NCBI GenBank assembly: GCA_017625775.1
Contig: JAGAKE010000014.1
Span: 62,001 to 126,000 of the forward strand
DNA: 64,000 nt
Reading direction: 5' to 3'
Source: Fibrobacteraceae bacterium
Lineage (GTDB): Bacteria; Fibrobacterota; Fibrobacteria; Fibrobacterales; Fibrobacteraceae
Part shown: piece by piece, positions 311-54,777 of the stretch
Position numbering within the stretch: position 1 is the first letter of the stretch
Layout of the letters: every line of letters begins with the position of its first letter
The notes under the pieces: model-generated
The model's input: the letters and a program-made list of their open reading frames with translations, nothing else
Told to the model about the DNA's origin: nothing
The model's database searches: none
Program-made: the position numbers and the translations under genes

Positions 311-3300
311 TTATTCAATCGTAATGAGAGTAAGTGTACGTTTACCAACTTTAATTGGTTTAGATACATCTACACCCTTCTTAGCCTTCTTAGAAGGATC
401 GTTTGCCCAACCTTCTTTGAGCTTTTCAGAACTGCGATCCAAAGTTTGGACAGTTGCTTTACCCTTGAAGCCAGGAATATCAAGCTTCAATTCATAATCG
501 CTATAAGGGCTCTTGTTTACAACGAGCAAAGATTTCTTCTTACCATTTTCTGTGTAGTAAGTGGTAAGTAAGGATTCATTGTCGCCGGTAATTTCTGTTT
601 TCAAGAGTTTTCCGCGAAGAGCGTCAGAAGCCATTTGGAATGCCCAGTAGCTTGGACGTGGGCAGTTCATGCATTCTTCAGCAGAACGAGTTAAGTAACC
701 ATAGTCACCGCCTTCTGGAGTAATATCGTTGTGGATATCCCAATATTGTGCGTTGTCAACATTTTCAGTTGCAAGCATTGCGAGGTAATCTGCAACGAAC
801 AAACCGTTTTCAAGAGCGATGGTTTGTGGGCCTGGGTTGAAGTCAACAGAGTTCCATTCTGTGAGCCACAATTCAAACTTCTTTTCTTTATTGAAGTGTT
901 TGGTCCACTTGTCAACGAGCTTATGGAGACGGCTGTAGATAGGAACCAAGTCTTGTGGTGCAGAAAGGAGAGCAAAGTCGTTTTCTTCACCGAAGTGTTG
1001 TGGGTAGTGGTGAACGATAATACCATCGGCAATGTCACCAGTTTCACGGAGAACGTTGTCATTCCATTCACCATCTAGCACACCAAGAACAGCAACCTTA
1101 ATAGTTGGGTCAACTTTCTTCATTGCTTCGATGAACTTGCGAGCACGTTTACCGTAAATGGTTCCACCATCTTTACCATATTTTTCGTAGTATGGGTGCC
1201 AGTTACCATAAACTTCGTTACCAATTTCCCAATACTTGATGCCAGCTTTCTTATCTACGTTGGTGTGTTTTACCCAAGCAGCAGCTTCTTGTTCTGTACC
1301 AGAACCGAAGTTTACTGTGAACATAGCATTAGAGCCAGTCTTCTTCAACCATTCTAAGAATTCATCAGTATCCACCATCCAATCCTTATTGTCAAGGATT
1401 TCTTTCCAGTGGTCGTCATCAGCACGAAGACCGCCTGGGTAACGGATAATGCCGTGATTGATACGTTTTACGTATTCAGATGTTTGAACTTTGAATTTCT
1501 TGTTGTCGAGCATATCGCCATCCCAAAGGGCAGCGTTAATACCGAAGAGACCGCCAGAAATTTCTGGGTTCAAAACTTCGCTTGTGCCTTTAACATTTAC
1601 TTTTACAACAGCTGGACGAGCAGCTTGTTTTACTTCGCGGAGGTTAGTAAGCTTGATGTTATCAACTTCGAAGCTACCGTTAGAACCTTCTCCACCTGGT
1701 TTGAAGTCAAGAGAAACAACGCCCTTCAAGTCGAATACGCCGTTTTCCTTTGCTCCAGGAGGTTGATAGTAAGGGAATTTTGCGAAGTTACGGAATGGAA
1801 CGATTACAGTGTTACGGCCACGAGGAACACCTGTGTTAGAAACGAAGAGTTCGTTTCCAGCATCGCCAATTTGAACAGTAATGGACTGCCATGCACGTTC
1901 AGAGTAAACGTCGAACATGATACCCCAGTGATTAGTCCAATCGCGGTCCTTAGCAGGACGATTGTTCTTAGCCATATCAAATACAACGTCAACCCAGTCA
2001 GACATTTCGAAATGCTTTACGTTGAGAGAATTACCGTCGAGCTTAGAAGTCTTGAACGGAACTTCAACTTCAACTTTGGACTTAGGACCTTTAGATGGTT
2101 CCCAAATATCCTTTGAATACTTGCTTTCGAAGTCTGTAATCACCATATCTGGAGCTTTGGATTTCCAGTTATCCCACTTGATGTCTGGGTCAACCCAGTC
2201 AATATTTTCAGTGAAGGTGATTTGGTCAACAAAGATAGTTACAGGAGCTGGTTTGCCTGGTTCGCCCTGGTTTTCACCCTTGCCAACAGAGAAGCGGATT
2301 TCTTGGATTTTATTCCATTGAATGTCCTTAGCGACTTCGGCCTGCTTGGTAGCGTCCCAAGCTTTACCTTTATCTACGAACTTCTTCAAAGGAATCTTGA
2401 CAAGTTTCCAATCGGTACCAACTTTAGAACCTTCAATCCAGTCGTTTAAGCTGATTTTGGTTTGGCTCTTGATGTCGTTACCTTGGTTGTCCAAAAGACC
2501 TACATAGACCTTTTCACCACCAAGTTTACCCTTGATCCAGAAGTAGAGACCTCCCTTGTTGCGAACTTTAGAGAGATCAACATACTTACCTTCACCAAGA
2601 GAGTAGGTAACACCAGACCAATCGTTGTTATCAATGTACATAGCAAGCACATTGGAGTTGCCGGCGGTCTTGGATTGAGCTTCACGTTGAGCGGTTAAAC
2701 CACCATAAACGTAGCTGAATTTTCCGTTTGCGAGCACATTGTCGTAGAAAGTAGCGAGTGTCTTAGCCTTGCCATCCAATTTTTCTGGAGTCTTAGGGCC
2801 ATCGATCACATCGTTATTTTCGTCCCAGTAAACAATTTTTGCTTTAGGCTTAGCCTTCTTGTTACCCTTAACGATTTCAATATTATCTACAAATACTTCA
2901 AATGCAGGGTTTGTTCCTTTATCAATAGAGAAACGAATTTCTGCGATTTTATCCCAGTCGATACGAGAAGGGAATTCTGCTTTGCGAGTGTTATCCCAAT
3001 AAAGACCACGGTCAGGGAAATCAACCAAAGGAATCGTTACCTTTTTCCATTCTGTGGTAACTGCGCCGCCTTGGATGTACTTGTTCATAGGAAGAACAAC
3101 TTGAGTTTTCTTTCCGTCGCCAGTTTCATCGTCCAAGAGACCAATTTTTAATTGTTCGCCACCCTTAGCGCCCTTAATCATAAATTCAATTCTTGAATCA
3201 AGCATATACTTGTTCAAATCAAAGAATTCATTGTAAAGACAAACGGATGCCCCAGAATAATCAGTTGGGTCAAGACTAATTTTTAGTGCTGATTTTGATT

Positions 3301-3490
3301 TATAACCACCATCTTTAGTCTTTTCGATGCCTTTTGATTTTCCACCATAGGCGTAGTCAAAACCACCTTGACGATATTGATCGTCAAAGAATTTATAAAC
3401 TACAAGACGTGGTGGTTTTTGCTGAGCCATGGAGGCGGTCGCCGTCATTCCCAAAAGGAACAAGGACGCTGCTTTCAAGGTTTGCTTCAT
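311..3490 (-). CDS. cel51A: Secreted GH51 endoglucanase with tandem CBM11-like modules
   Basis: This is a cellulase (endo-1,4-beta-glucanase class) of 1,059 residues. A signal peptide ends near ASMA-QQ (about residue 22). Two homologous beta-sandwich modules follow (about 28-208 and 243-430; both carry IKG..GGE, GLLD, a W-K-x-V-x-IPL strand and EIRFS), as expected for CBM11. A third, divergent carbohydrate-binding-like sandwich lies at about 448-625, and the GH51 barrel with its C-terminal sandwich fills about 640-1059. The GH51 acid/base is E759 in WEIGNE and the nucleophile is E878 in LTEWN. Length and architecture match my recollection of Fibrobacter succinogenes endoglucanase F/Cel51A. 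The ATG has an AAGAGGT ribosome site 8 bases upstream. The gene appears richer in C-ending codons (AAC, TTC) than its neighbours, suggesting high expression. It is monocistronic between two terminators. Confidence 0.93.
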   Translation of the reverse strand: MKQTLKAASLFLLGMTATASMAQQKPPRLVVYKFFDDQYRQGGFDYAYGGKSKGIEKTKDGGYKSKSALKISLDPTDYSGASVCLYNEFFDLNKYMLDSRIEFMIKGAKGGEQLKIGLLDDETGDGKKTQVVLPMNKYIQGGAVTTEWKKVTIPLVDFPDRGLYWDNTRKAEFPSRIDWDKIAEIRFSIDKGTNPAFEVFVDNIEIVKGNKKAKPKAKIVYWDENNDVIDGPKTPEKLDGKAKTLATFYDNVLANGKFSYVYGGLTAQREAQSKTAGNSNVLAMYIDNNDWSGVTYSLGEGKYVDLSKVRNKGGLYFWIKGKLGGEKVYVGLLDNQGNDIKSQTKISLNDWIEGSKVGTDWKLVKIPLKKFVDKGKAWDATKQAEVAKDIQWNKIQEIRFSVGKGENQGEPGKPAPVTIFVDQITFTENIDWVDPDIKWDNWKSKAPDMVITDFESKYSKDIWEPSKGPKSKVEVEVPFKTSKLDGNSLNVKHFEMSDWVDVVFDMAKNNRPAKDRDWTNHWGIMFDVYSERAWQSITVQIGDAGNELFVSNTGVPRGRNTVIVPFRNFAKFPYYQPPGAKENGVFDLKGVVSLDFKPGGEGSNGSFEVDNIKLTNLREVKQAARPAVVKVNVKGTSEVLNPEISGGLFGINAALWDGDMLDNKKFKVQTSEYVKRINHGIIRYPGGLRADDDHWKEILDNKDWMVDTDEFLEWLKKTGSNAMFTVNFGSGTEQEAAAWVKHTNVDKKAGIKYWEIGNEVYGNWHPYYEKYGKDGGTIYGKRARKFIEAMKKVDPTIKVAVLGVLDGEWNDNVLRETGDIADGIIVHHYPQHFGEENDFALLSAPQDLVPIYSRLHKLVDKWTKHFNKEKKFELWLTEWNSVDFNPGPQTIALENGLFVADYLAMLATENVDNAQYWDIHNDITPEGGDYGYLTRSAEECMNCPRPSYWAFQMASDALRGKLLKTEITGDNESLLTTYYTENGKKKSLLVVNKSPYSDYELKLDIPGFKGKATVQTLDRSSEKLKEGWANDPSKKAKKGVDVSKPIKVGKRTLTLITIE

Positions 3491-19588: not shown

Positions 19589-22500
19589 TTAGAAGTGAAT
19601 TGGTAGAGTTTTTGATTCATTTCCAACTAAGAGATTCAAGAAGAATGTTCCACTAACTGGCGGCACTTCAAGAGAAATAGAATTTTCTCCGAAGGAAGTT
19701 TTTTCGCTCGTGAATGAAATGATTCTTCCGCGAGAATCTAAGAAGCGAAGAGTAGAAGTTGCTTGGTCTGAATTATTTCTATTAAACGAAACGACAACAG
19801 AAGAACCATTTCTTGTGTAGCGAAGATTCTGAATATTCCCTGGTGAAACAAGATTTGCTTTTGGTAATACTCGGAACAAGGCTTGTTTTGAAGTAGCATT
19901 CAAATTCAAATGAACGCCTTCTTCAGAAACAACATCAATCACTTTCCCTTCAAAAATTAGTTCTGCTCGGTAACCTTTTTCTAACAAGGCATTCAAACCT
20001 TCAACTTTAAACAACGCTTTTCTTGGGCCATCGGCCTTTAAGTTTAAAACCCAAGTCAAAGAATCACTAGATTGCTTAATGGATTTAGCTAATGCACGAT
20101 GAGAACCTTGGGTAGAAAGAGAAAGCATCTGTTTCATACCAACAGGGGGTTCTTCTATAGAAAGGGCTGAAGAAGCTACGCCGATAACATTCCAAAAATC
20201 GCCTGTCTTGCTATTTTCATCTATTAACTTAAGACGTAAACTCCAAGAATTTTTAGAAGCATTTGCTCTTGCATTCTTAGAAAGAACTTTCATTGAGTCA
20301 TTTTCTTGGAAAACAGGTTTGTTAGCCACAGAAAAATCCTTAGACTCTTCTGTATGAATGAAGAAGGCTGAATTCGCTTTCAATGTTTGTACTGGTTCGT
20401 AGTTTTGCACTTGAGCATTCCAAATCCATGCCGGTTCTTCTGCATTTTCTGCATCTAAGAATGCGCTTGTGTGGTTGAGAGCGATATCCCAAGAATAAGG
20501 GTTTGAAAGTAAATTCCAGCCACTATAATGGTTTTCTAGTTTCCAAGTAATGGAATCTTCTTCAGGTTTTGTGAGAGAAGCAAGAAGTGGCAAAACAGTG
20601 GAATCTTCCACGAAGAACCAATATCCTTTCATTTTGTTTATATCACTTGCCTTTTCTAAACGTTCGTATTGCCAATATTCTCCGACAGGTTGAGATTCAT
20701 TCCAAGAATATAGCGTTACGTTTTCATTTTCTTCTGGTTTCCATTTAGAAGTGTCTAAATTCGCAAGAGAAATCATGCTCCAAGATTCGGTCGCCAAGTT
20801 TTCGTTCAAAATATTTGAAACATTTATCGCTACAGAATCTATTTCTTCGTGATTGCTAGTGAATAAAGATGCTTTTGCAGTGTAATTTCCTGCAGGAAGC
20901 GGCCAATATTCGAAAGCATATTCTTTACCAGATTCTGCATTTGCCGTTAGTAATGTATCTTGCAGTAGTGAAGAATCAGCTTTAAATAATTGAACTTTTA
21001 ATTGTATCGGGTGGAATGTTTTTATTTCTTCTGCGGTAATGGTGTAGCGAATTGCACTACCAGACATAGCAAGAATTGCCTTTTGAATCTTGAATAAATC
21101 CTCTTGTTCTTGCACAAATATTTCAAGAACACCATCTTCAGCTAAGTAGAAAATTTCTGGATTTTCAAGACGAATTCCATTTAAAGTTAAGGAATCAACA
21201 GAGAATTCATCGGCGATAGGAGTGTTCTGAATATCAAAACGAATCTTTCCGATTTTTGGGAAGGCTATTTTATTGTTTTGATTAGGTGTTAAAACATTTC
21301 CGTAATGAGAAATAGTCGTTACAATTCCAGAGTCCGGGCTAAGTGTAAGGTAAGCAATTTCTGGAATGCAATTTCTGCTAATTTCAGCGTAAACAGAAAT
21401 ATCACCAGAATCTCTTGGAGTCAAAACAAATTCATTCGTTTGTTCATCGTAATATAATGGCTCGCCATCATAGACATAATTAGAAAGACAATTTTCTAAT
21501 GTAGCGAGATTTGGAAGACGGACATCATTTCCGCGGTATATGTAACTTTCAGGAAAATCTCCGGTTTGGAATAAGGTGGAAGCTACATTCGGAATATCTA
21601 TATGAATGTTGTATTTAACTTTTGGGTAAATGGTAATAAACGCATTCTGTTCTTTCGGTAATGATATTGTATCGCCGAGAGCTACTTCATATTGAATGGA
21701 ATCATTGATTGAGACGATTAGAGAATCAGGAATGGCTTGTTCAGGTATTCCATACGCCTGATGAATAACCATTTTTGAAACTCTTGGCAACTGAATGCGT
21801 TCGACTGTTTGTTCTTGGAAAATTTCAGATTCAAGTGTTTCGTTGAAAATTTGAGTTTCATAAGCAAACCCGTGCATTAAATCTAAACTGATAAAATGTT
21901 GGTACAGTTCGCCTTCTTGTACATACGGTCTAAGTTCAATGTCGTATGTTTGCGTTTCACTAGTGAAGTTAGAAAGGATTTCCCACATACAATCTGTTGA
22001 TGAACAGACGAATCCGCTATTAATATGTTCCCATTGGTTGTAAAGAACAAAATCTTGAGTTTCATTTTGAGTAATGATTTTTGGTGTTGAATCGCCCTTT
22101 AAGAATTGAGCTGAAGTACTTTCAAAGAATACATTTTCTTTCTTTTCAAGTGGTTTAAATTCACCATATTCGTCGTAATCACCAAATACGATTCTTGCGG
22201 AGGTTTCATGGTAAGATACCGAATAAGGGTAAATTAAATTAGAATCGTTTTTCCAAATTTTCAAATCTTGAATGCCTTCTTTTTGCTCTTCAAGATTTTT
22301 ATAGAAAGTGATTAACGCCGAATCTTTAGAATCAAAGAGAATGGATGGTGGAAGTAATTTGAAATCAATAGCCGTTCCATCGTTTTTGTAGGCAAGTTTT
22401 CCGGATTTATTCGTGTAGTAATCGGAAAGAATAAAAGATGATGAAGAATATATCTCTTCTTCTTCGCTAGCAGAACTTGAAGAAGAAACTTCATCTTTTT

Positions 22501-25153
22501 CATAAAAATAAACGCCGACGGTAGGAAGAACATTATGATGGAATGATAATAATTGGGGTAAGCCTTCTTTTGCTTTTGGATCATGGAACCAAACAGGGCT
22601 ATTGCTGTTAAGTTGTGCAGCAAATGCTGGTGTTCCAAGTGCTAATGAATCAAAAGGTTTGCTGTTCGTAATGTAAACAACAGAATCAGCGGAATAGGCT
22701 AGAGCAATGTGTGATTCATCATTATAATTGTTTGGATTATGGTTTGTTAAAAGTTCGGCATTCCCTGCAAAATCAACGGCATAAGCAGCGTCAATTCCAT
22801 CGGAAACATTATTTTCAGTTGAAGAGAAAAGTCCATAAATATCAGAAAACTCTTTTGATGCGAAAAGGTTTCCGCTAAAATAGCCTGCGAACAATCTTGT
22901 TGTTCCTGGATTAAACCCAATTAAACCAGAAAGTATATCAACTTGATCAGTCATTGTCGTAGAAACAATTTCCAAATTACCTTCTACAAATACTTCCTGA
23001 AGAATTAGATTGTCGGTTTCTGATTCGGTTTTTCCGATAAGACCTCCTACAAAAGCAGGCATTGCAAAAACATTATCATTAGAGAATTTTGAAAGAGAAA
23101 TGAGGGTATCGTTTAAATTTTGTGCTTTAGTTTGTCGAATGCTTGTTTGGTGCATGGCAATATCGCCAACAATTCCTCCAAGGGAAATTTCAGGGAAGGC
23201 GTTTAATACTTTAATACTTCCAGTAAATTCAGAAGAGTCAATATATATGGTGTAATAATCGCTAGAAACTTCTGCCATTGAATTTGTGAGTTGTCCTGCA
23301 ACACCACCTAAAAAGGAACCTTCTGTATATCTTGGGAGTATTTCTGCATTTTCAGCAAAAGAAACATCGTAATCAAGTGAAATTTTTGAAGAAACTTTGT
23401 TGTTTAAAAAATTCTGATAAGCAGAACCATTTTTTCCAACAACTCCACCAATAGCAACAGCAGAACTAGCAGAAATTTCACTGTGGCCAGCAGCGTCTGA
23501 AATTATATTAATTGGAGCGGAAACGATATTGTTTTTGAAACTAGAAGTATTGCTAGATATTTCGCCAATTAAACCACCAGTTAAAGTGTAGTAAGAAGTT
23601 ACAGAAATAGGGGCAGATACTTCTGAATTTTGAATGACAAAATCATACGGAGAGTTATTGGAGGCATTTGCGACAATACCGCCAACTTTTACAAATGTAC
23701 CAGGCAAATTAACGGAAATTGAACCATTAACTTTGATTTCGTCAAAGATTAAATCAAAAGGATAAGAATCACTTAATTGACAAGTTCCGAAAACTCCTCC
23801 AACAGAATTATCGTATGATGGATAAAAACCTTCTCCAAAAGAATAAGTAAGGTTTCCGCTCATTTCTAAGTTTTTAAAGTTTGCTGTTGATGAAGAGGAA
23901 ACATAATTTTCATACATGGAGTTGTAAGAACCGACAAATCCGCCAATGGAATAGATATCGCCAAGCAAAGATTCTACGGAAATATCGCCAGAATAAACGA
24001 CATCATGGATAATCATTGAAGGGGAGTTTGCATTTCCGAAAACAGATCCAAGATAAACTTGGCCTGAAACTAATTGATTTAACAATATATCTGTTTTGAT
24101 TTCACTATTTTGAACTTTTATAGAATCATTTGTTTCAACTAAACCCACAAAACCACCGAGCTGTAACATTCCGGCAAAATTATCAGGAGTTGTTTCGCCA
24201 ATGCTTTTGATGAAACCATCAGCTTGAACTTGATTGATTGAAATTCTATTAGAGACTACACCAGCTAAGCCGCCAATAGTAATGGTTTCCATAGGAAGTT
24301 TAGAATTGAGTAGGGTAAATTCAATATTTAATGTATCCTTTTCAAAGATGGTTTTTCCTGATTGGGCAATAAATCCACCAAATGTAAGAGAAGTCGGTTT
24401 TTCGTTTTCTGAATCAATTTGGGTAACGTGTAAATCAAGAGAAGATTCTGTAAATTGAACATTTTTCAAATCATTATAGATTGAGCCAACAAACCCACCA
24501 ATTGTACCTTCCCCTGAAATGAGATAGTTGATGTTTTTGGCTTGAATTGATTTAAAAATTTGAGAACTTGATGTGTCTTCGCTAAAGCCTTCTGCAACAA
24601 GAAGGGCGGCTGTTGCGTAATATTTTGAGATAAGCGTGACGTCTTGAATTTTAATATTTTCTACTTCTAATCCATCATTTAAGTAATTTATTAAAACCGC
24701 TGTATTTCCACCAGATTCTGAATAAGATACAATGTTTTTTAAAGTCAAATTTTTAAATGAGGCTTGATTTACATTATTAAAAATAGCTGGATAAAGAGTC
24801 GCTTCTAATGGATTGGTGTCTTTTAAACATAATCCAGAAATGGTATGATTATTCCCGTCAAATGTTCCACGGAAAGTTTCTATTGGAGAAAAGTTCGCCG
24901 TACAATTTGAATCAAGAATGTCTTCTGAAAAAATCAAATCTTCCGTCAAAGTGACATAGAAGGGAGCGCCTTGACAGAGGTTCATACAACTTGATTGTAT
25001 ATTGGCTAAATTCTGGAATTCCTCTGTCGAGGAAACGTTAATTTCGCAGCGATTCGCTTCACTGTTGAAAAAACAAGCTGGAGCGTCTTGAGCTTGAAGC
25101 CAAGAAATTGCAACGAGAATTATAAATGAAAAAAATGAAAATTTTTGCTTCAT
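19589..25153 (-). CDS. Giant exported GLUG-repeat surface protein with sorting-like C-terminus
   Basis: The 1,854-residue protein starts with a signal peptide ending near WLQA-QD. Residues about 85-830 form a GLUG-type beta-solenoid: FRGTFDGNNHTISGL is followed by repeated blocks such as GGFVGSIYND, GGLAGVVSN, GGVFGTCQ, GGLIGEIS, GGVVGKNG, GGVAGQL and GGIVGDIA. A Ser/Glu-rich linker (about 886-905) separates this from beta-rich modules. The last roughly 70 residues (FLDSRGRI, then ENSISLEVPPVSGTFFLNLL) resemble a type IX secretion sorting domain. Cys pairs near the N-terminus could form disulfides. It is the third gene of an operon, 15 bases after the outer-membrane protein gene. GLUG proteins are mostly adhesins or of unknown role; the ligand is unknown. 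Confidence 0.85.
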   Translation of the reverse strand: MKQKFSFFSFIILVAISWLQAQDAPACFFNSEANRCEINVSSTEEFQNLANIQSSCMNLCQGAPFYVTLTEDLIFSEDILDSNCTANFSPIETFRGTFDGNNHTISGLCLKDTNPLEATLYPAIFNNVNQASFKNLTLKNIVSYSESGGNTAVLINYLNDGLEVENIKIQDVTLISKYYATAALLVAEGFSEDTSSSQIFKSIQAKNINYLISGEGTIGGFVGSIYNDLKNVQFTESSLDLHVTQIDSENEKPTSLTFGGFIAQSGKTIFEKDTLNIEFTLLNSKLPMETITIGGLAGVVSNRISINQVQADGFIKSIGETTPDNFAGMLQLGGFVGLVETNDSIKVQNSEIKTDILLNQLVSGQVYLGSVFGNANSPSMIIHDVVYSGDISVESLLGDIYSIGGFVGSYNSMYENYVSSSSTANFKNLEMSGNLTYSFGEGFYPSYDNSVGGVFGTCQLSDSYPFDLIFDEIKVNGSISVNLPGTFVKVGGIVANASNNSPYDFVIQNSEVSAPISVTSYYTLTGGLIGEISSNTSSFKNNIVSAPINIISDAAGHSEISASSAVAIGGVVGKNGSAYQNFLNNKVSSKISLDYDVSFAENAEILPRYTEGSFLGGVAGQLTNSMAEVSSDYYTIYIDSSEFTGSIKVLNAFPEISLGGIVGDIAMHQTSIRQTKAQNLNDTLISLSKFSNDNVFAMPAFVGGLIGKTESETDNLILQEVFVEGNLEIVSTTMTDQVDILSGLIGFNPGTTRLFAGYFSGNLFASKEFSDIYGLFSSTENNVSDGIDAAYAVDFAGNAELLTNHNPNNYNDESHIALAYSADSVVYITNSKPFDSLALGTPAFAAQLNSNSPVWFHDPKAKEGLPQLLSFHHNVLPTVGVYFYEKDEVSSSSSASEEEEIYSSSSFILSDYYTNKSGKLAYKNDGTAIDFKLLPPSILFDSKDSALITFYKNLEEQKEGIQDLKIWKNDSNLIYPYSVSYHETSARIVFGDYDEYGEFKPLEKKENVFFESTSAQFLKGDSTPKIITQNETQDFVLYNQWEHINSGFVCSSTDCMWEILSNFTSETQTYDIELRPYVQEGELYQHFISLDLMHGFAYETQIFNETLESEIFQEQTVERIQLPRVSKMVIHQAYGIPEQAIPDSLIVSINDSIQYEVALGDTISLPKEQNAFITIYPKVKYNIHIDIPNVASTLFQTGDFPESYIYRGNDVRLPNLATLENCLSNYVYDGEPLYYDEQTNEFVLTPRDSGDISVYAEISRNCIPEIAYLTLSPDSGIVTTISHYGNVLTPNQNNKIAFPKIGKIRFDIQNTPIADEFSVDSLTLNGIRLENPEIFYLAEDGVLEIFVQEQEDLFKIQKAILAMSGSAIRYTITAEEIKTFHPIQLKVQLFKADSSLLQDTLLTANAESGKEYAFEYWPLPAGNYTAKASLFTSNHEEIDSVAINVSNILNENLATESWSMISLANLDTSKWKPEENENVTLYSWNESQPVGEYWQYERLEKASDINKMKGYWFFVEDSTVLPLLASLTKPEEDSITWKLENHYSGWNLLSNPYSWDIALNHTSAFLDAENAEEPAWIWNAQVQNYEPVQTLKANSAFFIHTEESKDFSVANKPVFQENDSMKVLSKNARANASKNSWSLRLKLIDENSKTGDFWNVIGVASSALSIEEPPVGMKQMLSLSTQGSHRALAKSIKQSSDSLTWVLNLKADGPRKALFKVEGLNALLEKGYRAELIFEGKVIDVVSEEGVHLNLNATSKQALFRVLPKANLVSPGNIQNLRYTRNGSSVVVSFNRNNSDQATSTLRFLDSRGRIISFTSEKTSFGENSISLEVPPVSGTFFLNLLVGNESKTLPIHF

Positions 25154-25168
25154 AAAAATTCTCCTTCT

Positions 25169-28100
25169 TTAAAATGCGTAATGAAGGGCTATGGCAGCCC
25201 AAAAATCTCTGTATTCGTCGGCTCGATTGTCTGGACGATAATTATAAGTAGCACCAAGCATCCAATCAGAATAAAGAGCGTTTGTATGATGAACACGCCA
25301 AGTTATTGAACCATCTAAATCAGCTTCAACTTCACGCAGGCGTTCCCCTTCATAATTTCTTTTATAAAATTCCAAACGGTAATTTGCATCAACAAAAGTT
25401 TCCATGAAATTGTTAAACAATGGAATTTCAAAGTGTTCAGAGAAGTTCCATTCTAACTCACGCATTGAAGCAAAGTTATACATTTTGTAGCGAGGTGTTA
25501 CGCTTAAAATATTTTTGAATTTTTTGAATGAAGTATGAAGGGATACAGGATAACGTTGTTCAAAATAATCCGCTCCATGGAAGTAGTAACCAAGAGAGGC
25601 AAAGGTGGAATTTTTAAAATCAAGATTTTCTAGTAGCGAATCATGTTCAAAGTGAGAATAATCACGATAGATATTCCAAATTCCGCCAATTCTTAAAACA
25701 TTAGAAGGGAAGAAAAAGGAAACTTCTGTAGATATAGAATGCTTAAGCAGGCGTTCTTCAAATCGAGACGCTAAATAAGGTTCGTTGGCTAAAGCGTAAT
25801 ATTCAGCAAACCTAGAAGAATCAATTTTAGTAGAATCTCCGTTAGCCACAAGAGTTAGAGTAGGTGAATCTTTTTTCGGAGCAAACCAAGGGTCGTCATA
25901 AATGCCTGATTCTGTAGAATAGTTGGCATAAAGGCGAAGAGGTCTGCTACGAGTTCTGTAATCAGCCGAATAACCAACAGAGAATGCGGCTACTTTACCA
26001 ATCTGGAAATTGTTTTCTAAGCTAGCATTATGTTTATAGTAAGTGCGATTTTCGTCAAGTTCGTGTTTGTCATACCAAGAAGAATTTTTGTCTGGGAAAA
26101 GTCCAAAACGCGTTCCTTCTCCAAATCCGAAAATATTGTATTTATTCCCGTTTGCCGCGTTTTCTATTTTTAAATCATAACCAAGTTCAAAATCGTAGAA
26201 AGAAGAAACTTCTTGTTCAAGGAGTGCAGAAAAAGCTCTTGTGTTATTTAATTGATCCGGAGAACCGGCGCTATAAAAATTTTCACCAACATAGCTGAGT
26301 TTTCCTTCGATCAATGTTTTACCTAAGTCCCAACGAAGTGAAGCGGCAATAGCCAAATTACTACCATCCCAATCAGAAATGTCTGAAGGAGAACTTTCTG
26401 ATTTTTCGGCTTTATCTTTTACTTTATTCGCTTCTTGAATTAGGTAACGAAGTTTTTCGCGCATTTCTGAAGCGGCAAGAAGTGTGTTTTCTCCGAATAT
26501 TTCTAGCAGTTCTTCTCTTGAAAGGGAAGAAACTAAAGAAGGGCTTCGCATTAAATTACGAAGAAGTTTCATGTTTTCTATGGAAAGTCCTGCTTCTGAA
26601 AAAACATGTTGAATGGCTCTTTGTACTAAAACATCGGCAGTATCTGCTGCACCGGCAGCAATTTGACCATTTAATTCAATATCTCCAGGGTAAAATAGCC
26701 AATTTCCATCAGCAAAAAATGTTTTTGAAGTAATCATTGGGTCGATGGTGTTTGTGTTTTCTGAAATACCATCTCTTAAGAATGGATCCTCTAAATAATC
26801 TTTTCTACCAATATAGCCTACAGTGGCGTCAAACCGACGGAGTGGTTTCCAACGTAAAGAAGCTCCCACAACCATTTCTTGCGCTTCTGCTTCATTTGCT
26901 TCAATCCAATCTTTATACACTTCTGGATTTTTTTCATTCGGATATTTCGGAGATTGATGTTCACCTCCAAAAGCAGATAATGTAAACAAAGGATCTTGAT
27001 TTTTATTTTTGAATAGATTCAATGTATAGGAAGCGCCGAGCATACTGATGCCAGATAAGTAAATTTCTCCAGCACTAGCGTAAGTGTCGCCCAATGTAAT
27101 TTGTTGGAATTTATCGGTATAGGTTGTTCTCACATTTTTTGCGGAGAATCGATTCCATGAATTACTTTCTAGCGCTGTATTAAATTCAATGGTTTTTCCG
27201 CTTTGAGTTTCCATACGAATGTAGGCGTCAAGAGTACCAAATAATCCAGGAACTTGGAAATAATTACGGTATCTTTTATTTTGAAGAACAGAATCTTCTC
27301 CAGAAATCCAAGTTTCCCCAGTGTGATTCCTGCGCATGCGAACTAAATGATAACCAACTTGCAATGCTACATTTCCAGAAAGCGTCCATTTTTCATTTTG
27401 ATTATTGGAAATACCTGTGTAAATGGAAGGGGAGTATTGGCTTGCGTTTGGATTTTCGGGAGCGTCTGCAAGAGTGTTTTTTACGGATTCCGTTTCTAAA
27501 GAGAAATTTTTTTCGTTTTGATTGACAGCTTCTTTGATATTTTCTGTCGGAATATTTTCAGAAATAAATCCTACTTTATTTTGTTTAATGTCGCTTTCAA
27601 TCAAATTAAGTTGAGCGCCTAAATCAAGTACGCCAATTTCATTATCTTTTAAAGAAGCTTCACGGAGAGCAATTACTGTATTTGCTTCGGCGACGAGTGC
27701 AATTTTATTTTGCTCAAAGTTGGCTTGTAAAATATCAATGTCAGAACCATTTGAAATTCGTAGTGCGGCGCTCTTATTATTTTTGAAAGAAGCGTTTTCT
27801 ACAGTCAATGCGGAATTTTTACTAAACAAACCAGTCTCTGCAGAATTTTCAATGGAAATGTTTCGTAAGTCGGCTATTCCGTTTTCTATAGCAATACCGA
27901 TTTCAGCATTTTCAATTTTTACATCTTGAAAATCAGCACTCATTTTTCCGGTAATGGAAATTCCATTCCAACGCGAATCACCTGCTGCTTTTAAAACAAC
28001 TGGTTTGTCTTCTTGCCCAGCTACTGCAAATGAACCACCGGCTACATCTATTCCAGACCCTTTTGTAAAAAGAAGAGAAACGCCTGCATCAATAATTAAC

Positions 28101-28276
28101 GCTTTTCCTTCCGGAATAATTAAGGTGGATTCAACTAGATAAGGCGATTTTTCGGCCGTAAGAAATCCTGAAATTTCACCTTGAATCGGTGTTTGTGGTT
28201 TTGCCGATTCCTCACCGCTTGCGTAAAGGGCGGCGCTTAATGCAAGAGGAATAAATAGAAAAAAACTTTTTCGCAT
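25169..28276 (-). CDS. Outer-membrane protein: parallel beta-helix plus beta-barrel
   Basis: The 1,035-residue exported protein has a signal peptide ending near LYASG. Residues about 30-240 are a right-handed parallel beta-helix of the bactofilin/pectate-lyase-like type: GEISGFLT, IPEGKALIIDAGVSLLF, then repeated N-rich rungs such as DLRNISIEN, TVENASFKNN and DILQANFEQN. From about residue 290 to the end, alternating amphipathic strands suggest a large beta-barrel ending in HYAF, a C-terminal Phe signal for BAM insertion. Its start overlaps the FecR-domain gene by one base, and the GLUG gene follows 15 bases later. It could dock or present the GLUG protein; that is inference from the operon. 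No TonB box or plug domain is evident. Confidence 0.82.
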   Translation of the reverse strand: MRKSFFLFIPLALSAALYASGEESAKPQTPIQGEISGFLTAEKSPYLVESTLIIPEGKALIIDAGVSLLFTKGSGIDVAGGSFAVAGQEDKPVVLKAAGDSRWNGISITGKMSADFQDVKIENAEIGIAIENGIADLRNISIENSAETGLFSKNSALTVENASFKNNKSAALRISNGSDIDILQANFEQNKIALVAEANTVIALREASLKDNEIGVLDLGAQLNLIESDIKQNKVGFISENIPTENIKEAVNQNEKNFSLETESVKNTLADAPENPNASQYSPSIYTGISNNQNEKWTLSGNVALQVGYHLVRMRRNHTGETWISGEDSVLQNKRYRNYFQVPGLFGTLDAYIRMETQSGKTIEFNTALESNSWNRFSAKNVRTTYTDKFQQITLGDTYASAGEIYLSGISMLGASYTLNLFKNKNQDPLFTLSAFGGEHQSPKYPNEKNPEVYKDWIEANEAEAQEMVVGASLRWKPLRRFDATVGYIGRKDYLEDPFLRDGISENTNTIDPMITSKTFFADGNWLFYPGDIELNGQIAAGAADTADVLVQRAIQHVFSEAGLSIENMKLLRNLMRSPSLVSSLSREELLEIFGENTLLAASEMREKLRYLIQEANKVKDKAEKSESSPSDISDWDGSNLAIAASLRWDLGKTLIEGKLSYVGENFYSAGSPDQLNNTRAFSALLEQEVSSFYDFELGYDLKIENAANGNKYNIFGFGEGTRFGLFPDKNSSWYDKHELDENRTYYKHNASLENNFQIGKVAAFSVGYSADYRTRSRPLRLYANYSTESGIYDDPWFAPKKDSPTLTLVANGDSTKIDSSRFAEYYALANEPYLASRFEERLLKHSISTEVSFFFPSNVLRIGGIWNIYRDYSHFEHDSLLENLDFKNSTFASLGYYFHGADYFEQRYPVSLHTSFKKFKNILSVTPRYKMYNFASMRELEWNFSEHFEIPLFNNFMETFVDANYRLEFYKRNYEGERLREVEADLDGSITWRVHHTNALYSDWMLGATYNYRPDNRADEYRDFWAAIALHYAF

Positions 28277-30117
28277 TAACGCACCTCATAGATTTTTTTT
28301 GCTTTTACGGTCAGGCCGTTTTTGTGTAATACTTCAATTTCAAATTGATTTAAAGCATTGCGATTGATTTCTACAGGAAGTATGTAATCTAAAGATTGAA
28401 TTTGGTCTAATTTTTCTTGAAGAATAATTTTTCCATTTTTCTTCACGATTACTTTATAGAGGAATGTTGGGTCATTCTCTTGTAATTTAATTTTGAAATG
28501 CAAATTTTTCTGAATTACATCAGCCATACCTTTTGGTGGAGGCGGAATTCTAAGAGATTCTTTTTCTTGACCATCTATTTGAATGGAAAATCTTTTGGCT
28601 GGGTAGCAACCAAGAGTTTTCTTAACGCTGTTTTTATTTTGAGCTTGGTCTTGAATGGTGAATTCATAATCATGAATGCCTGCGTTTAATTTTAAATCTA
28701 TTTTCTTATCTTTTTGAATTGCATTTTCAGAATGGGTTGAACCATCAATGCTCTGAGTTAATATGGCAATATCTCCAGAAATGTTCTTAGTTAAAAGTGA
28801 TGCGACGCAACGGAGTGAATCATAAGAATCGAAATGAACGGTAGGGACAATTGTATTAACTTCTTTACATGTTTTATCGATTTGTAAATTGATTTTCTTT
28901 TTCTCTGTTAAATCTTTAGACGTAAATTCAACGCTTGCTTCTGTGATGTTCCAAAGTCCGTTTTTGTCTGTTGGAGAAAGTTTTTCTGAGAAAGAGTGAA
29001 CTTGATTGTCTGCCAAAATCATCAAGTTTCCAGATTTATAATTTCCAATAGTTACATACAAGGTTGCGGCTGAATCAGAAGTTCTATAACTTCCTTGAAT
29101 CTGAATTCCATTTTTGCAAACTTTAAGTGTTGTTGAAGTATTTAATTTAAATTCTGCGGCAGGAATTTCACTAGAAGGTAAGTAGTAAGTTTCAAATGTT
29201 CCACAGTCAACATTAAGTGAATCAGTTTTGCATTGCATTTTGAATTTTTTCAAGCCAGAACCCGCAGAATCTAATTGAATTTCCATTTCAAAAGAACCAT
29301 CATTTTTAAAGGAAATTTCTTCGCCGTGTAGTGTGGCTGTAATTCCTGTAGAACATTTACCTTTTGCTATAACAGATGCTTCGTTTGTCGTGTCAGGAAG
29401 GGATTCTAAAGAACAATTGATTTTATTTTTAGCTTCTTTCAACTCTTCTTGGAATGTTTGGTCCGCAGATTTTAATTTATTTACAAGTTCATTGAAATTC
29501 TGGGTAGTGTCTTTTAAAATTTCTGTAAGGCGTTTTGCAAAATTTGGATCACCCGAAGATTCAAGTTCAAGAACGACTAGGGAATCACCAACGATAGTGG
29601 TTTGACCAGCTCCTATTTGAACATTCTTCTTTGTTTTAGAATCTTGCACATCTAGCTTTCCGTTTTTTAAACCCGCAAAAAATGGAGAAGAACTAATGAC
29701 GCCTTCTGTTCCTCGTATAGCAGCAACCGCCGTTCCTGTTTTAAATGAAAATGAAGCAGTCTTTTTTTCTTGTTTTTGTGCAGAAAAACTAACGCGTCCT
29801 GATTTGATGTCTATGTTTGTTTTGTAAGCACCATTCTCTTCAAAAAGCTCGGCAAGAGCTATTTCTGATTGTTCTTCAATGGTGATGATACTTCCGTCTG
29901 GAAGTCCTAGTACAAGTTCAGATTCTTGTCCAGTTTTTACCTTGTCGCTTTGATATACTTTTGAACCTACTCGTAAAGGCGACCAAGATGATTGGTTCTT
30001 TTTTTGACGAGAAACTTCACCAAGAGCTGAACGAACTTTACCTGCTGCGGGAGCTGCTTGGCATAGAGATGCGGCCAAAAGAAAAATTAACGAAAAGTAA
30101 ATTTTTGGGTAACGCAT
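28276..30117 (-). CDS. Exported FecR-domain protein
   Basis: The 613-residue protein has a signal peptide ending near LCQA-AP and no other membrane helix, so it is periplasmic or surface-exposed. Residues about 25-165 are a FecR domain (VRSALGEVSRQ, YQSDKVKTGQESELVLGLPDGS, FKTGTAVAAIRGTEG). A helical stretch (about 190-235) and three or more beta-sandwich-like modules with scattered Cys follow. Classical FecR proteins are inner-membrane anti-sigma regulators with a cytoplasmic tail; this one lacks that, so it is more likely a structural or peptidoglycan-associated envelope protein. It leads the three-gene operon and is divergent from pyrD. Confidence 0.82.
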   Translation of the reverse strand: MRYPKIYFSLIFLLAASLCQAAPAAGKVRSALGEVSRQKKNQSSWSPLRVGSKVYQSDKVKTGQESELVLGLPDGSIITIEEQSEIALAELFEENGAYKTNIDIKSGRVSFSAQKQEKKTASFSFKTGTAVAAIRGTEGVISSSPFFAGLKNGKLDVQDSKTKKNVQIGAGQTTIVGDSLVVLELESSGDPNFAKRLTEILKDTTQNFNELVNKLKSADQTFQEELKEAKNKINCSLESLPDTTNEASVIAKGKCSTGITATLHGEEISFKNDGSFEMEIQLDSAGSGLKKFKMQCKTDSLNVDCGTFETYYLPSSEIPAAEFKLNTSTTLKVCKNGIQIQGSYRTSDSAATLYVTIGNYKSGNLMILADNQVHSFSEKLSPTDKNGLWNITEASVEFTSKDLTEKKKINLQIDKTCKEVNTIVPTVHFDSYDSLRCVASLLTKNISGDIAILTQSIDGSTHSENAIQKDKKIDLKLNAGIHDYEFTIQDQAQNKNSVKKTLGCYPAKRFSIQIDGQEKESLRIPPPPKGMADVIQKNLHFKIKLQENDPTFLYKVIVKKNGKIILQEKLDQIQSLDYILPVEINRNALNQFEIEVLHKNGLTVKAKKIYEVR

Positions 30118-49423: not shown

Positions 49424-49524
49424 ACTGCTTCTTTGTGCAGTAATGCGAATTTTTTTCTAAATTTTACGGAAGAAATTTGCATTTTTTTTTGCAAAGTTGG
49501 TTTATTATATCCTTGTGGGTTTTT

Positions 49525-52500
49525 ATGACGCGTTCTGTTGAAATTCGCGATGCTTATGAAAATAATTTGCAGCATGTAAACTTAACCATTCCCAGAGATT
49601 CTATTGTGGTGGTTACGGGCGTTTCTGGTTCCGGTAAATCAAGTCTTGCTTTTGATACAGTTTTTCAAGAAGGGCAGCGTCGTTTTATAGATTCTCTTTC
49701 AGCGTATGCTCGCCAGTTTATCGGCAGCATGAAACGACCAAATGTTGAATCAGTGCGCGGTATTTCGCCGACGATTTCTATTGATCAAAAAACGGTAAAC
49801 AGAAATCCACGTTCTACCGTTGGAACTGTTGTTGAAATTATGGATCACTATCGGCTTTTGTTTGCTCGTTTAGGTGAAATTCGCTGTCCAAAATGTGGAA
49901 AAAAAATTGAAGCGCAATCAGTTGATCAAGTAGTTGATAATCTCTACATAGAACATGAAGGCAAAAATGTAATTGTTTTAGCTCCAATTGTTCAAGAACG
50001 TAAAGGTGAATACCGCAAAGAACTAGAAGATTTGCAAGCGAAGGGTTTTATGCGCGTTCGGGTAGATGGAACAATTTATCGAACCAATGAAGTTCCTTTG
50101 CTTGTTCGTTATGAAAAACACACTATTGAAGTAGTTATTGATCGCGTTTCTTTAGAATTAAAAAATATTTCAAGAGTTCGAGAAGCTGTTGAGGGAGCTT
50201 TAAAATTAACGGAAGGAAAACTTGTAGCCTTTTTGTACGACGATGGAGCTTACTCTATGCAGGGAACAGAGCGAGCTTGTGTGCGTTGTGGTATTTCAAT
50301 TCCTGAACTAGAACCTCGATTTTTTTCGTTTAATGATGCGCAAGGCCAGTGTGAAGCTTGTAAAGGGCTTGGAGAAAGTTTTGTTTTTGACCCAGCGTTA
50401 ATAATTCCTAATGAATCGCTATCTATTCATGATGGGGCATTAAAGTGTCAAAAGAAAGATACAGGAACTATTATTTTTTCTGATTATGGTTGGAAAGAAC
50501 TTCGCCAAATTGCTTATGAAATGAAATTTTCTCTCTCTACGCCTTGGAAAGAACTTTCAGCAAAAGCGAAAAACGCTGTTTTGTATGGCACTCCATCAGG
50601 AAGTATTTCTGGTGTGATTCCAATTATGCAAGAACTTTGGGATACTTGGCATATAGTTCATTTCAGAAAATTTATGCAAATTGGAGTTTGCCCGAAATGT
50701 AACGGTTCTAGATTGAATCCTGTAGCTAATGCCGTTCGATTTCATGGTCATGGAATACACGAAATGAGTGCCTGGTCTGTGGAATATTCTGCCCAATTTT
50801 TTAACAAATTAAATTTGACTGAAAAAGAACAACGAATCGGTCGTGAAATTTTTAAAGAAATTCGTGGAAGGCTTTCTTTTTTACAATCTGTTGGTTTAGG
50901 TTATTTAACTCTTTCAAGAGGGGCGGCCACACTTTCAGGCGGTGAAGCGCAACGGATTCGCCTAGCGGCAGCGGTGGGGGCTGGGCTACAAGGCGTTCTT
51001 TATGTTTTAGACGAACCAAGTATTGGTTTACATGCTCGCGACAATGAACGCATGCTTTCTATGCTAAAAAAATTGCGTTCTCAAGGGAATAGTTTACTTG
51101 TTGTAGAACATGATGAGGAAACGATGCGCCATGCCGATTGTGTGGTAGATGTCGGACCGGGCGCTGGTGTAGAAGGCGGAAAAATTGTTGCCCTTGGACC
51201 AGTTTCTGAACTTGAAAAATCTAAGGAATCTTTAACAGGAGCTTTTTTAAGTGGACGAGAAAAAATTGAAATTCCTAAAATCAGAAAAAAGATTTCTGCA
51301 AAAACACCTAAATTAAAAGTGGTCGGTGCTCGCGAACATAATTTGAAAAATTTAACGGTTGAAATTCCTTTAGATGGCGCGTTTACAGTTGTTACAGGCG
51401 TTTCTGGTTCAGGAAAAAGCACGCTTGTGAATCATATTTTAAGACGCGAACTTTCTAGGCATTTTTATGGTTCTGAAGAACCTAGAGCTAATTTTGAACG
51501 TTTAGAAGGAATTGAATACATAGACAAAGTAATTGAAATAGATCAAACGCCAATTGGCCGAACGCCTCGTTCAAACCCAGCTACTTACACAAAAATTTTT
51601 GATGATATTCGTGAGTTATTTGCTTCTTTGCCACTTAGTAAAATGCGAGGTTATTCAAAAAGTCGTTTTAGTTTTAATGTTTCTGGCGGTCGTTGTGAAG
51701 CTTGTCAAGGTGCTGGCGTTCAAGTTGTTGATATGCAAATTTTGCCTAGCGTACAAGTAGTTTGTGATGTTTGTGATGGAAAACGCTTTAATGAATCGAC
51801 CTTAGAAGTTTATTATCGTGGAAAAAATATTAAAGATGTTTTGGACATGAGTATTCATGAAGCTTGTGATTTTTTTGCAGATTTGCCAAAAATTTCAAAA
51901 CCTTTGAAAATTTTAAAGAATGTTGGTTTGGGGTATTTAAAACTTGGACAACCTTCAACAACACTTTCTGGCGGTGAAGCACAACGTGTAAAAATTAGCT
52001 CAGAACTTCGTAGGCCGGGTACCGGAAAAACGCTATACCTTCTTGATGAACCGACAACAGGCCTTCATTTCGAAGATATTCGCCGATTAATGGAATGTTT
52101 GAATGAACTTCGGAAATTAGGAAATTCCGTTGTAGTTATTGAGCATAATTTAGATGTTATTAAATGTGCAGATTGGATTATTGATTTAGGCCCAGAAGCT
52201 GGAGAAGAAGGCGGTCGTTTAGTGATTGCAGGAACTCCAGAAAAAGTAGCGAATTCATCTCGCTCCATTACTGGAAAATATTTAGCGCCGGTTTTATCAG
52301 GAAAAAAATTAGAAACAGAAACGCTTTCTTGTCGTGAAAATTCTTCAGAATATTCTTTGGATATTCAAGTGCGCGGGGCGAGAAAACATAATTTGAAAAA
52401 TTTCTCTGTTTCAATTCCTCGACATAAAATGACTGTTGTTACAGGCGTTTCTGGCTCAGGAAAATCAAGTTTAGCCTTTCATACGCTTTTTGCAGAAGGT

Positions 52501-54777
52501 CAACGTCGCTTTGTAGAAACTTTGAGTACTTATGCTCGTCGATTTCTTGGGCGTTTAGATCGAGGAAGTATTGATTCTATTGATGGTCTTGCACCGGCTA
52601 TTGCTATTGATCAAGGAAGTGCGTCAAGAAGTCCACGAAGCACTGTAGCGACTTTAACAGAAATTTATGATTATTTCCGTATTTTATGGGCGCGTGTAGG
52701 AACTTCTCATTGTATTCATTGTGGGCAAACAGTTTCTTCACATAGTGTGGCAGCAATTGTTGCTTATGCATTTACTCATGAAAGAAATAACGAAATAGAT
52801 GTTTTAGTCCCTATTGATACAAAGAAAGCAAAAGGTTTTGAAAAAGTCCTTATCGATAGAGGGTATCGAAAAATATTAGCAAATGGAAAATGGTTAACTC
52901 CTTCTGAAATAGGAAAAGCAAAGGGACCATTTTATGCTTTAGCAGATCATTTGGAAGTAAAAGATGAAACAGCGGCTCGATTATCCGAGGCGTTAGAACG
53001 AGCTTATCGTGATGGCGAAGGAATTTTATTTTTACGAAATAAAAATGGCGTTTTATCTCCGTTCTCTCAATTACCAGGTTGTCCTTCTTGTAATTGGTTC
53101 TTGCCTATGGCGCTTGATCCAAAAAATTTCAGTTTTAATACTCATTGGGGGGCGTGTCCGCATTGTTTAGGTCTTGGCGTAGAAAATAAAAGAGGAAAAG
53201 TTTGTTCAGAATGTAATGGAGAACGCTTAAAAAAAGAATATCGCTTAGTTGAAATCAATGGAAAAAATATCATTCAAATTTCAAATATGAGCATTGCAAA
53301 TGCAAGAGAATGGTTTGCTTCTTTAAAATTATCAAAAGATATTGAAACGGTGGCTGCACCTTTACTTCGTGAAATTATTGGTAGGTTAGATTTTTTAATT
53401 GGTGTTGGTTTAGGTTACCTTGGTCTTTCACGAACCGGAGATACTCTTTCTGGTGGAGAAGCGCAACGCATTCGTCTTTCTGGGCAAATTGGAAGTGGTT
53501 TAGAAGGTGTGCTTTACGTTCTTGATGAACCAACAGTCGGGCTTCACCAAAGCGATACGCAAAAACTTCTCTCAACGCTTTATCGTTTACGAGATTTAGG
53601 AAATACGCTTGTAATCGTAGAACACGATTTGGATATGATTCGTGCGGCAGACCACATTTTAGATTTGGGACCAGGAGCAGGAGAATTTGGTGGAGAAGTG
53701 GTGGCTTCGGGAACGCCTGCCGAACTTTCATTAGCAAGTGCTGAAAAAGAATTTCCAGAAAGTGCTACGGTTCCATACCTTATTGGGAAAAAACCGTTAG
53801 AAAATCCTCCGGGCGTTTCTACGATTTCATCACACGAAAATTTCTTTGAATTTTCAAAAATAAACGTGCATAACTTAAAAAATATTTCGGTTAAAATTCC
53901 AAAAGGAAAAATTACTACAGTTTGCGGTGTGTCTGGCTCAGGCAAAAGTTCTTTAGTGCTAGAAGGAATCTATGAGCGTTTACAAAAGCAATTTGCTGCC
54001 AAAAGTCGCAAGAAACCTTCTGGAAATGTGCTTCTTGTAGATCAATCACCCTTATCTGGAACGCCTCGCTCAACGCCTGCAAGTTATATGGGAATTTTAG
54101 ACCCAATTCGTAAACTTTTTGCTCAAACAGAACAATCTAAAATTAAAGGTTATAATGTAGGTCGTTTTAGTTATAATATGGCTGCTGGTCGTTGCCCTGT
54201 TTGTGAAGGACGAGGTAGTATATCAGTCGCAATGCATTTTTTGTCTGATGTCTGGGAAATTTGTGAAGAATGTAACGGTAGTCGTTATAATAAGGAAACC
54301 CTTGAAGTAACGTTCAAAGGAAAAAATATAGCCGAAGTTTTAGATATGCGTATTCACGAGGCTTTAAAATTTTTTGAAGCGTTCCCCAAAATTTCAAGAC
54401 CCTTAGAAATTTTGAAAAATGTTGGACTTGGTTATTTACGATTAGGCCAATCTGTGACGACATTTTCTGGCGGTGAAGCACAAAGAATGAAATTAGCCGC
54501 CGAGTTATCTGCTCCAATTGGAGAAAATACGGTTTACCTTTTAGATGAACCTACATCAGGGCTTCATTTAAAAGATATTCAAATATTGTGGAATTTATTG
54601 CGAGAACTCTCATCACGCGGAGCGACGCTTGTAATTGTAGAACATCACCCAGATATTATTCGCCTATCAGATTGGATTGTTGAATTAGGTCCATGTGGGG
54701 GCGAAAATGGCGGTTTTTTGATGTATGAAGGAATTTTTTCTGAACGTAATTGCCAAAAAGAAGGTAATTTTAAATAA
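49525..54777 (+). CDS. uvrA: Double-length excinuclease ABC subunit A (tandem UvrA-UvrA)
   Basis: UvrA recognises DNA damage in nucleotide excision repair. This 1,750-residue protein is two complete UvrA units in one chain. Walker A motifs (GVSGSGKS type) start at residues 32, 625, 974 and 1468. Four ABC signatures (LSGGEAQR three times, FSGGEAQR once) and four DEP(S/T).GLH Walker B segments are intact. Each unit also has zinc-finger Cys pairs, including GRCEACQG with VCDVCDGKR and GRCPVCEG with ICEECNGSR. Halves meet near residue 940. Chlamydiae have a UvrA of similar size. ATG 49525 starts the conserved [14 protein letters not shown]-like N-terminus; an upstream in-frame start adds an unconserved hydrophobic stretch. 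Confidence 0.95.

Follow-up and report, generated by a model that had tools for sequence, protein, structure and literature searches.

A FecR-Barrel Gene Pair of Fibrobacterota as an Apparent Docking System for Giant Surface Proteins

In this study, we examined a window of 64,000 nucleotides (the whole stretch of DNA under analysis, to which all positions refer) from a fibre-digesting gut bacterium of the Fibrobacteraceae together with related loci across the Fibrobacterota. Our analyses suggested that a gene pair encoding a FecR-domain protein and a large barrel appears to constitute a docking system for giant cell-surface proteins that has not been described before. The pair, rather than the trio that it forms in the window with a giant GLUG-repeat protein, is the ancient unit, and the trio is one context in which it occurs. 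No published description of the trio was found, and a text search on Fibrobacter and FecR returned only articles about gut parasites in farm animals, in which FecR evidently refers to egg counts.

The three open reading frames are encoded on the minus strand in the order FecR-Ig (613 aa, 28276-30117), beta-helix plus barrel (1035 aa, 25169-28276) and GLUG giant (1854 aa, 19589-25153). The first two overlap by one base (28276), the second and third are separated by 15 bases (25154-25168), and a single strong intrinsic terminator with an 11-bp GC-rich stem and a T-run (19568-19544, minus strand) stands 3' of the GLUG gene, followed by relA/spoT on the same strand; pyrD lies divergently at the other flank. 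The layout put forward in the original prediction, three exported proteins with this overlap, this gap and one terminator, was confirmed. Farther along the window, the product of 49477-54777 is UvrA-like, has 1766 aa and two UvrA interaction domains, and resembles a tandem fusion; the usual length of UvrA is little over half of this.

At its N-terminus, the FecR-Ig protein has an apparent Sec signal peptide (residues ∼1-22, judged by eye), followed by a FecR domain (residues 58-139, 29701..29946, minus strand; PF04773, E = 8.3e-13 in the Pfam scan), a modelled two-helix segment (residues 191-232, 29422..29547, minus strand) and roughly four consecutive Ig-like beta domains (residues 235-612, 28282..29415, minus strand) recognized from the model, its folds and homologues. 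The AlphaFold2 model has a mean pLDDT of 88.8, its fold matches in the PDB are mostly generic Ig-type chains, and Pfam recognizes Glucodextran_B and Big domains in distant homologues. The earlier assignment to the FecR-domain proteins stands, with the Ig-like chain added to it. The absence of sigma-regulator parts was also borne out, as the Pfam scan found FecR as the sole regulator part and no anti-sigma N-domain. The proposed role of this protein as a cell-wall tether found no support, since Pfam detected no OmpA-C, LysM or similar peptidoglycan-binding domain in the FecR-Ig protein of the window or three of its distant homologues.

The second protein had been described as a parallel beta-helix joined to a barrel, and AlphaFold2 modelled it as such (mean pLDDT 86.7). 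The N-terminal right-handed beta-helix covers residues 29-240 (27557..28192, minus strand; PF13229, E = 5.4e-7, and model strands), and the barrel, drawn from the model, loops and alignment, covers residues 298-1035 with approximately 25-26 strands (25172..27385, minus strand). Predicted loops are mostly long after odd strands and short after even strands, as expected for a barrel, and the C-terminal F is invariant in the alignment; from these alternating loops and the C-terminal aromatic residue, a BAM-assembled outer-membrane barrel is predicted. A conserved helical insert (residues 549-626, 26399..26632, minus strand; model and conservation) follows strand 11 and would form the sixth outer loop if the N-terminus is periplasmic. 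Long outer loops (2.5-3.5 bits) are about as conserved as the membrane strands (2.68 bits), which suggests a conserved binding partner. The barrel region matched no family in Pfam, NCBIfam or PHROGs. PHROGs yielded only weak matches to families of unknown function, and sequence searches of the PDB with single proteins and profiles returned nothing meaningful. Fold matches in the PDB, including MtrB, the FimD usher and SprA, were all weak and generic for large barrels, so the functional class is not readable from the barrel fold. In seven loci (L040, L110-L112, L115, L125 and L128), the barrel genes mostly lack the beta-helix and the paired FecR proteins are shorter (448-475 aa), suggesting linked domain loss. 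A stand-alone NosD-like beta-helix protein related to the N-terminal domain was also seen in an unrelated neighbourhood (L041:9630-10346).

The third protein contains 12 GLUG-type GGxxG repeats by motif count (residues ∼219-707, 23033..24499, minus strand), a C-terminal module conserved in barrel-linked third proteins (residues 1350-1854, 19592..21106, minus strand) and, within it, a type A-like sorting domain of the type IX secretion system (T9SS) located by TIGR04183 in homologous tails (residues ∼1788-1849, 19607..19792, minus strand). Both assignments had been made before. The GLUG match (PF07581, E = 0.039) is below the Pfam cut-off, but residues 201-760 contain 12 GGxxG-type motifs against 0.05 expected from shuffles, and all 15 third proteins examined, the window's included, carry 5-25 such motifs. 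Likewise, the window giant is sub-threshold for TIGR04183 (14.3 bits for the whole protein and 19.5 bits for the tail alone, cut-off 23), whereas 12 of 12 homologous tails match it at E ≤ 0.1, at best with 2.2e-6.

Parts of the machinery for such a tail occur throughout the phylum. SprA was found in 168 of 168 Fibrobacterota genomes and exceeded the cut-off in 160, the genome of the window among them; the PorV family was present in 12 of 12 genomes searched, and the same genome has PorV-family barrels of its own as well as 22 sorting-domain matches. These findings make the T9SS the simplest candidate route of export for the GLUG giant, as judged from sequence. Being universal in the phylum, SprA could not serve as a discriminator. 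Another window protein (730 aa, 54801-56993) has an FGE-sulfatase domain and could be GldK-like; the T9SS ring protein PorK/GldK is a repurposed FGE-sulfatase fold. Use of the T9SS by F. succinogenes has already been proposed (PMC6851124). The occurrence of SprA throughout Fibrobacterota contrasts with a 2025 paper, in which the T9SS was called exclusive to Bacteroidota (PMC12618676).

The barrel family was detected in 98 of 111 Fibrobacteraceae genomes (E ≤ 0.001), some matches being to the beta-helix region alone, and the barrel profile matched 162 of 168 Fibrobacterota genomes, weakly in many distant ones. Only the scan of genome contigs reached beyond the phylum, and the 80 loci kept from it are titled Fibrobacter or Fibrobacteraceae/Fibrobacterales, except for one that is filed as a Bacteroidia MAG (L131). 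A FecR gene stands directly upstream in 73 of the 75 Fibrobacteraceae loci whose barrel gene could be read; of the two exceptions, one is due to a spurious antisense ORF and the other to a contig edge, and in most loci the two genes overlap or abut. In other families, the pair is kept in five of six distant loci with readable upstream sequence. In the exception (L147), no FecR gene adjoins the barrel homologue, and a separate beta-helix protein is encoded close by. In three loci of horse-faeces Fibrobacter (L043, L109 and L129), the barrel gene is preceded by two FecR genes in tandem. Two distant loci (L146 and L150) share the kinds of divergent neighbours found at many Fibrobacteraceae loci, and a third (L149) shares the first gene, so that the place beside ybeY and corC is likely ancestral; these neighbours were identified by Pfam in L150 and L046 and elsewhere judged by size and sequence. 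The original prediction overlooked this wider pair, of which the trio, itself conserved as a unit, is one context.

In the midpoint-rooted barrel tree, the ybeY/corC context prevails almost throughout one clade, and the other, with 40 rows, holds the window copy, which is thus a member of the duplicated clade. A giant surface protein stands beside the pair in 37 of these 40 loci, five of them judged by size and position only, and it is either a GLUG protein directly downstream, a cadherin protein upstream, or both. The trio with GLUG is also present in F. intestinalis ATCC 43854 (L063). Pfam confirmed cadherin in five upstream giants (E from 2.5e-88 to 5.9e-46), one of which (L111) belongs to a six-locus group of barrel-only proteins in which the end-motif test had registered no giant; the upstream ORFs in the other five loci of that group have the same size and place and were counted by position, and the remaining cadherin loci were assigned from the motif at the end of the giant ORF upstream. 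Since a short gene often intervenes between the cadherin gene and the pair, membership in the operon is plausible for the GLUG gene alone. No sorting domain was found in the one cadherin giant scanned (L090).

Inheritance of the linkage can be read from the tree of C-terminal modules, where all 14 barrel-linked proteins whose C-terminus could be read are separated by a branch of 100/100 support from 20 unlinked paralogous modules that occur in genomes of the same family. The barrel-linked GLUG proteins form one clade, which means that the linkage was inherited and not repeatedly formed; judged from these sequences, the trio has been passed on as a unit. Distances between FecR and barrel proteins (r = 0.82 over 74 loci) and between barrel and third proteins (r = 0.98 over 13 loci) are correlated, which indicates co-inheritance, not contact. 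Conservation of the three genes together in relatives, on which the original prediction had staked its refutation, was thereby upheld.

In Bacteroidota, SprB and other giant T9SS adhesins occur in association with barrels cognate to them (PMC9143113, PMC12618676). Like the trio, SprB-SprF and PG1035-PorP-PorE, whose cargo is of T9SS type B, link a surface cargo gene to a dedicated outer-membrane barrel, and PorP-PorE also has a periplasmic partner, in place of which the trio has FecR-Ig. In contrast, the trio barrel comprises about 740 aa, approximately 25-26 strands and a beta-helix against the 273 positions of the PorP/SprF model, its cargo tail is type A-like, and the gene order differs. 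The window barrel had no PF11751 (PorP/SprF) match at E ≤ 1; the genome search with PF11751 was also empty, but no positive control matched, so absence of PorP/SprF is not implied. By analogy, the trio looks like a counterpart of SprB-SprF that is unrelated in sequence and has an extra FecR-Ig partner. Weak matches of the FecR region, all far below curated cut-offs, were to the LapA-type retention module (E = 8.7e-5) and to the Leptospira FecR-domain surface proteins Lsa33 (9.4e-11) and LipL45 (3e-10); no type I secretion or LapD/LapG genes were seen beside the trio.

Attachment to plant fibre, which had been suggested as the purpose of the assembly, was not supported, as none of the three proteins showed a carbohydrate-binding domain. 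The cadherin protein FSU_2932 of F. succinogenes (318 kDa) was reported only from cellulose-grown cells (PMC4619616); it is similar in size to the cadherin giants beside FecR-barrel pairs in relatives, whereas the window has GLUG, and it provides the only link, an indirect one, to fibre attachment. At 311-3490, the window also encodes a protein with CBM30 and CBM11, a set like that of the F. succinogenes cellulase FSU_0382.

Our preferred reading, adopted tentatively and with slightly less than even confidence, is a T9SS-exported GLUG giant with a dedicated outer-membrane docking barrel and FecR-Ig as the partner of that barrel. FecR-Ig and the large beta-helix/barrel protein would constitute a two-protein outer-membrane module of Fibrobacterota, of which the window copy may be a duplicate that became dedicated to the giant. 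Sec would carry the GLUG protein across the inner membrane; the protein would pass the outer one through the type IX system by virtue of its C-terminal sorting domain, and would then be held at the surface by its cognate barrel, with FecR-Ig as a putative periplasmic or lumenal partner. Anchoring or display of the giant by the barrel, already part of the original prediction, is what we infer from the dedicated linkage, the single partner clade and the conserved outer loops; the physical complex and its orientation are likewise conjectural. Three findings are at odds with docking: giant proteins are missing next to the ancestral ybeY/corC copies, which requires a function of the pair that involves no giant; the GLUG tail resembles type A, and type A tails in Bacteroidota use PorV and need no cognate barrel; and the L090 cadherin giant has no sorting-domain match. 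A bolder version, possible but rather doubtful, would make the FecR-plugged barrel of ∼26 strands, with its beta-helix neck, a phylum-specific machine whose duplicates were repurposed as docking platforms for GLUG and cadherin giants, independently in sequence of PorP/SprF.

The ancestral context without a giant gene, seen in several families, is also what would be expected if the pair were a general unit of outer-membrane transport or envelope maintenance and the giants adjoined its duplicates merely through shared regulation. The apparent loss of the pair in several genomes of one genus (G099-G103, weak matches only) points the same way, but a giant gene is retained at nearly all loci of the duplicated clade and the GLUG partners belong to a single dedicated clade, and we regard this explanation as unlikely, though a serious competitor. 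The barrel could instead be the export pore itself, plugged by FecR, of MtrB size, and passing the Ig chain or the giant without the T9SS. Its many strands, the presence of MtrB, FimD and SprA among the fold matches, and the cadherin giant lacking a sorting domain would fit such a pore; yet the GLUG proteins carry a T9SS-type tail, SprA is universal, and even the closest fold, the large MtrB barrel of the Mtr complex (6r2q_B), gave a TMq of only 0.35 at 8% identity, with no cytochrome gene seen beside the trio. We consider export by the barrel improbable. Far less probable still is a role of FecR-Ig in surface signalling, as a regulator that responds to the condition of the barrel. The PF04773 domain is indeed common to the trio protein and FecR anti-sigma regulators, but the former has an apparent signal peptide and an Ig-like chain, no further FecR regulator domain in the Pfam scan and, beside the trio, pyrD and relA/spoT instead of any sigma factor. 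A sigma-regulator role was rejected on these grounds, and signalling of the classical FecR type is largely refuted.

The way in which Fibrobacter hold on to and digest plant fibre has long been an open question, and the machinery that displays proteins on their surface is mostly unnamed. A barrel family with no match in the profile libraries searched, a phylum-wide distribution, a fixed FecR partner and repeated linkage to giants is a concrete and testable candidate for this machinery. If the bolder reading is true, Fibrobacterota would possess a docking solution of their own, specific to the phylum and independent of PorP/SprF in sequence.
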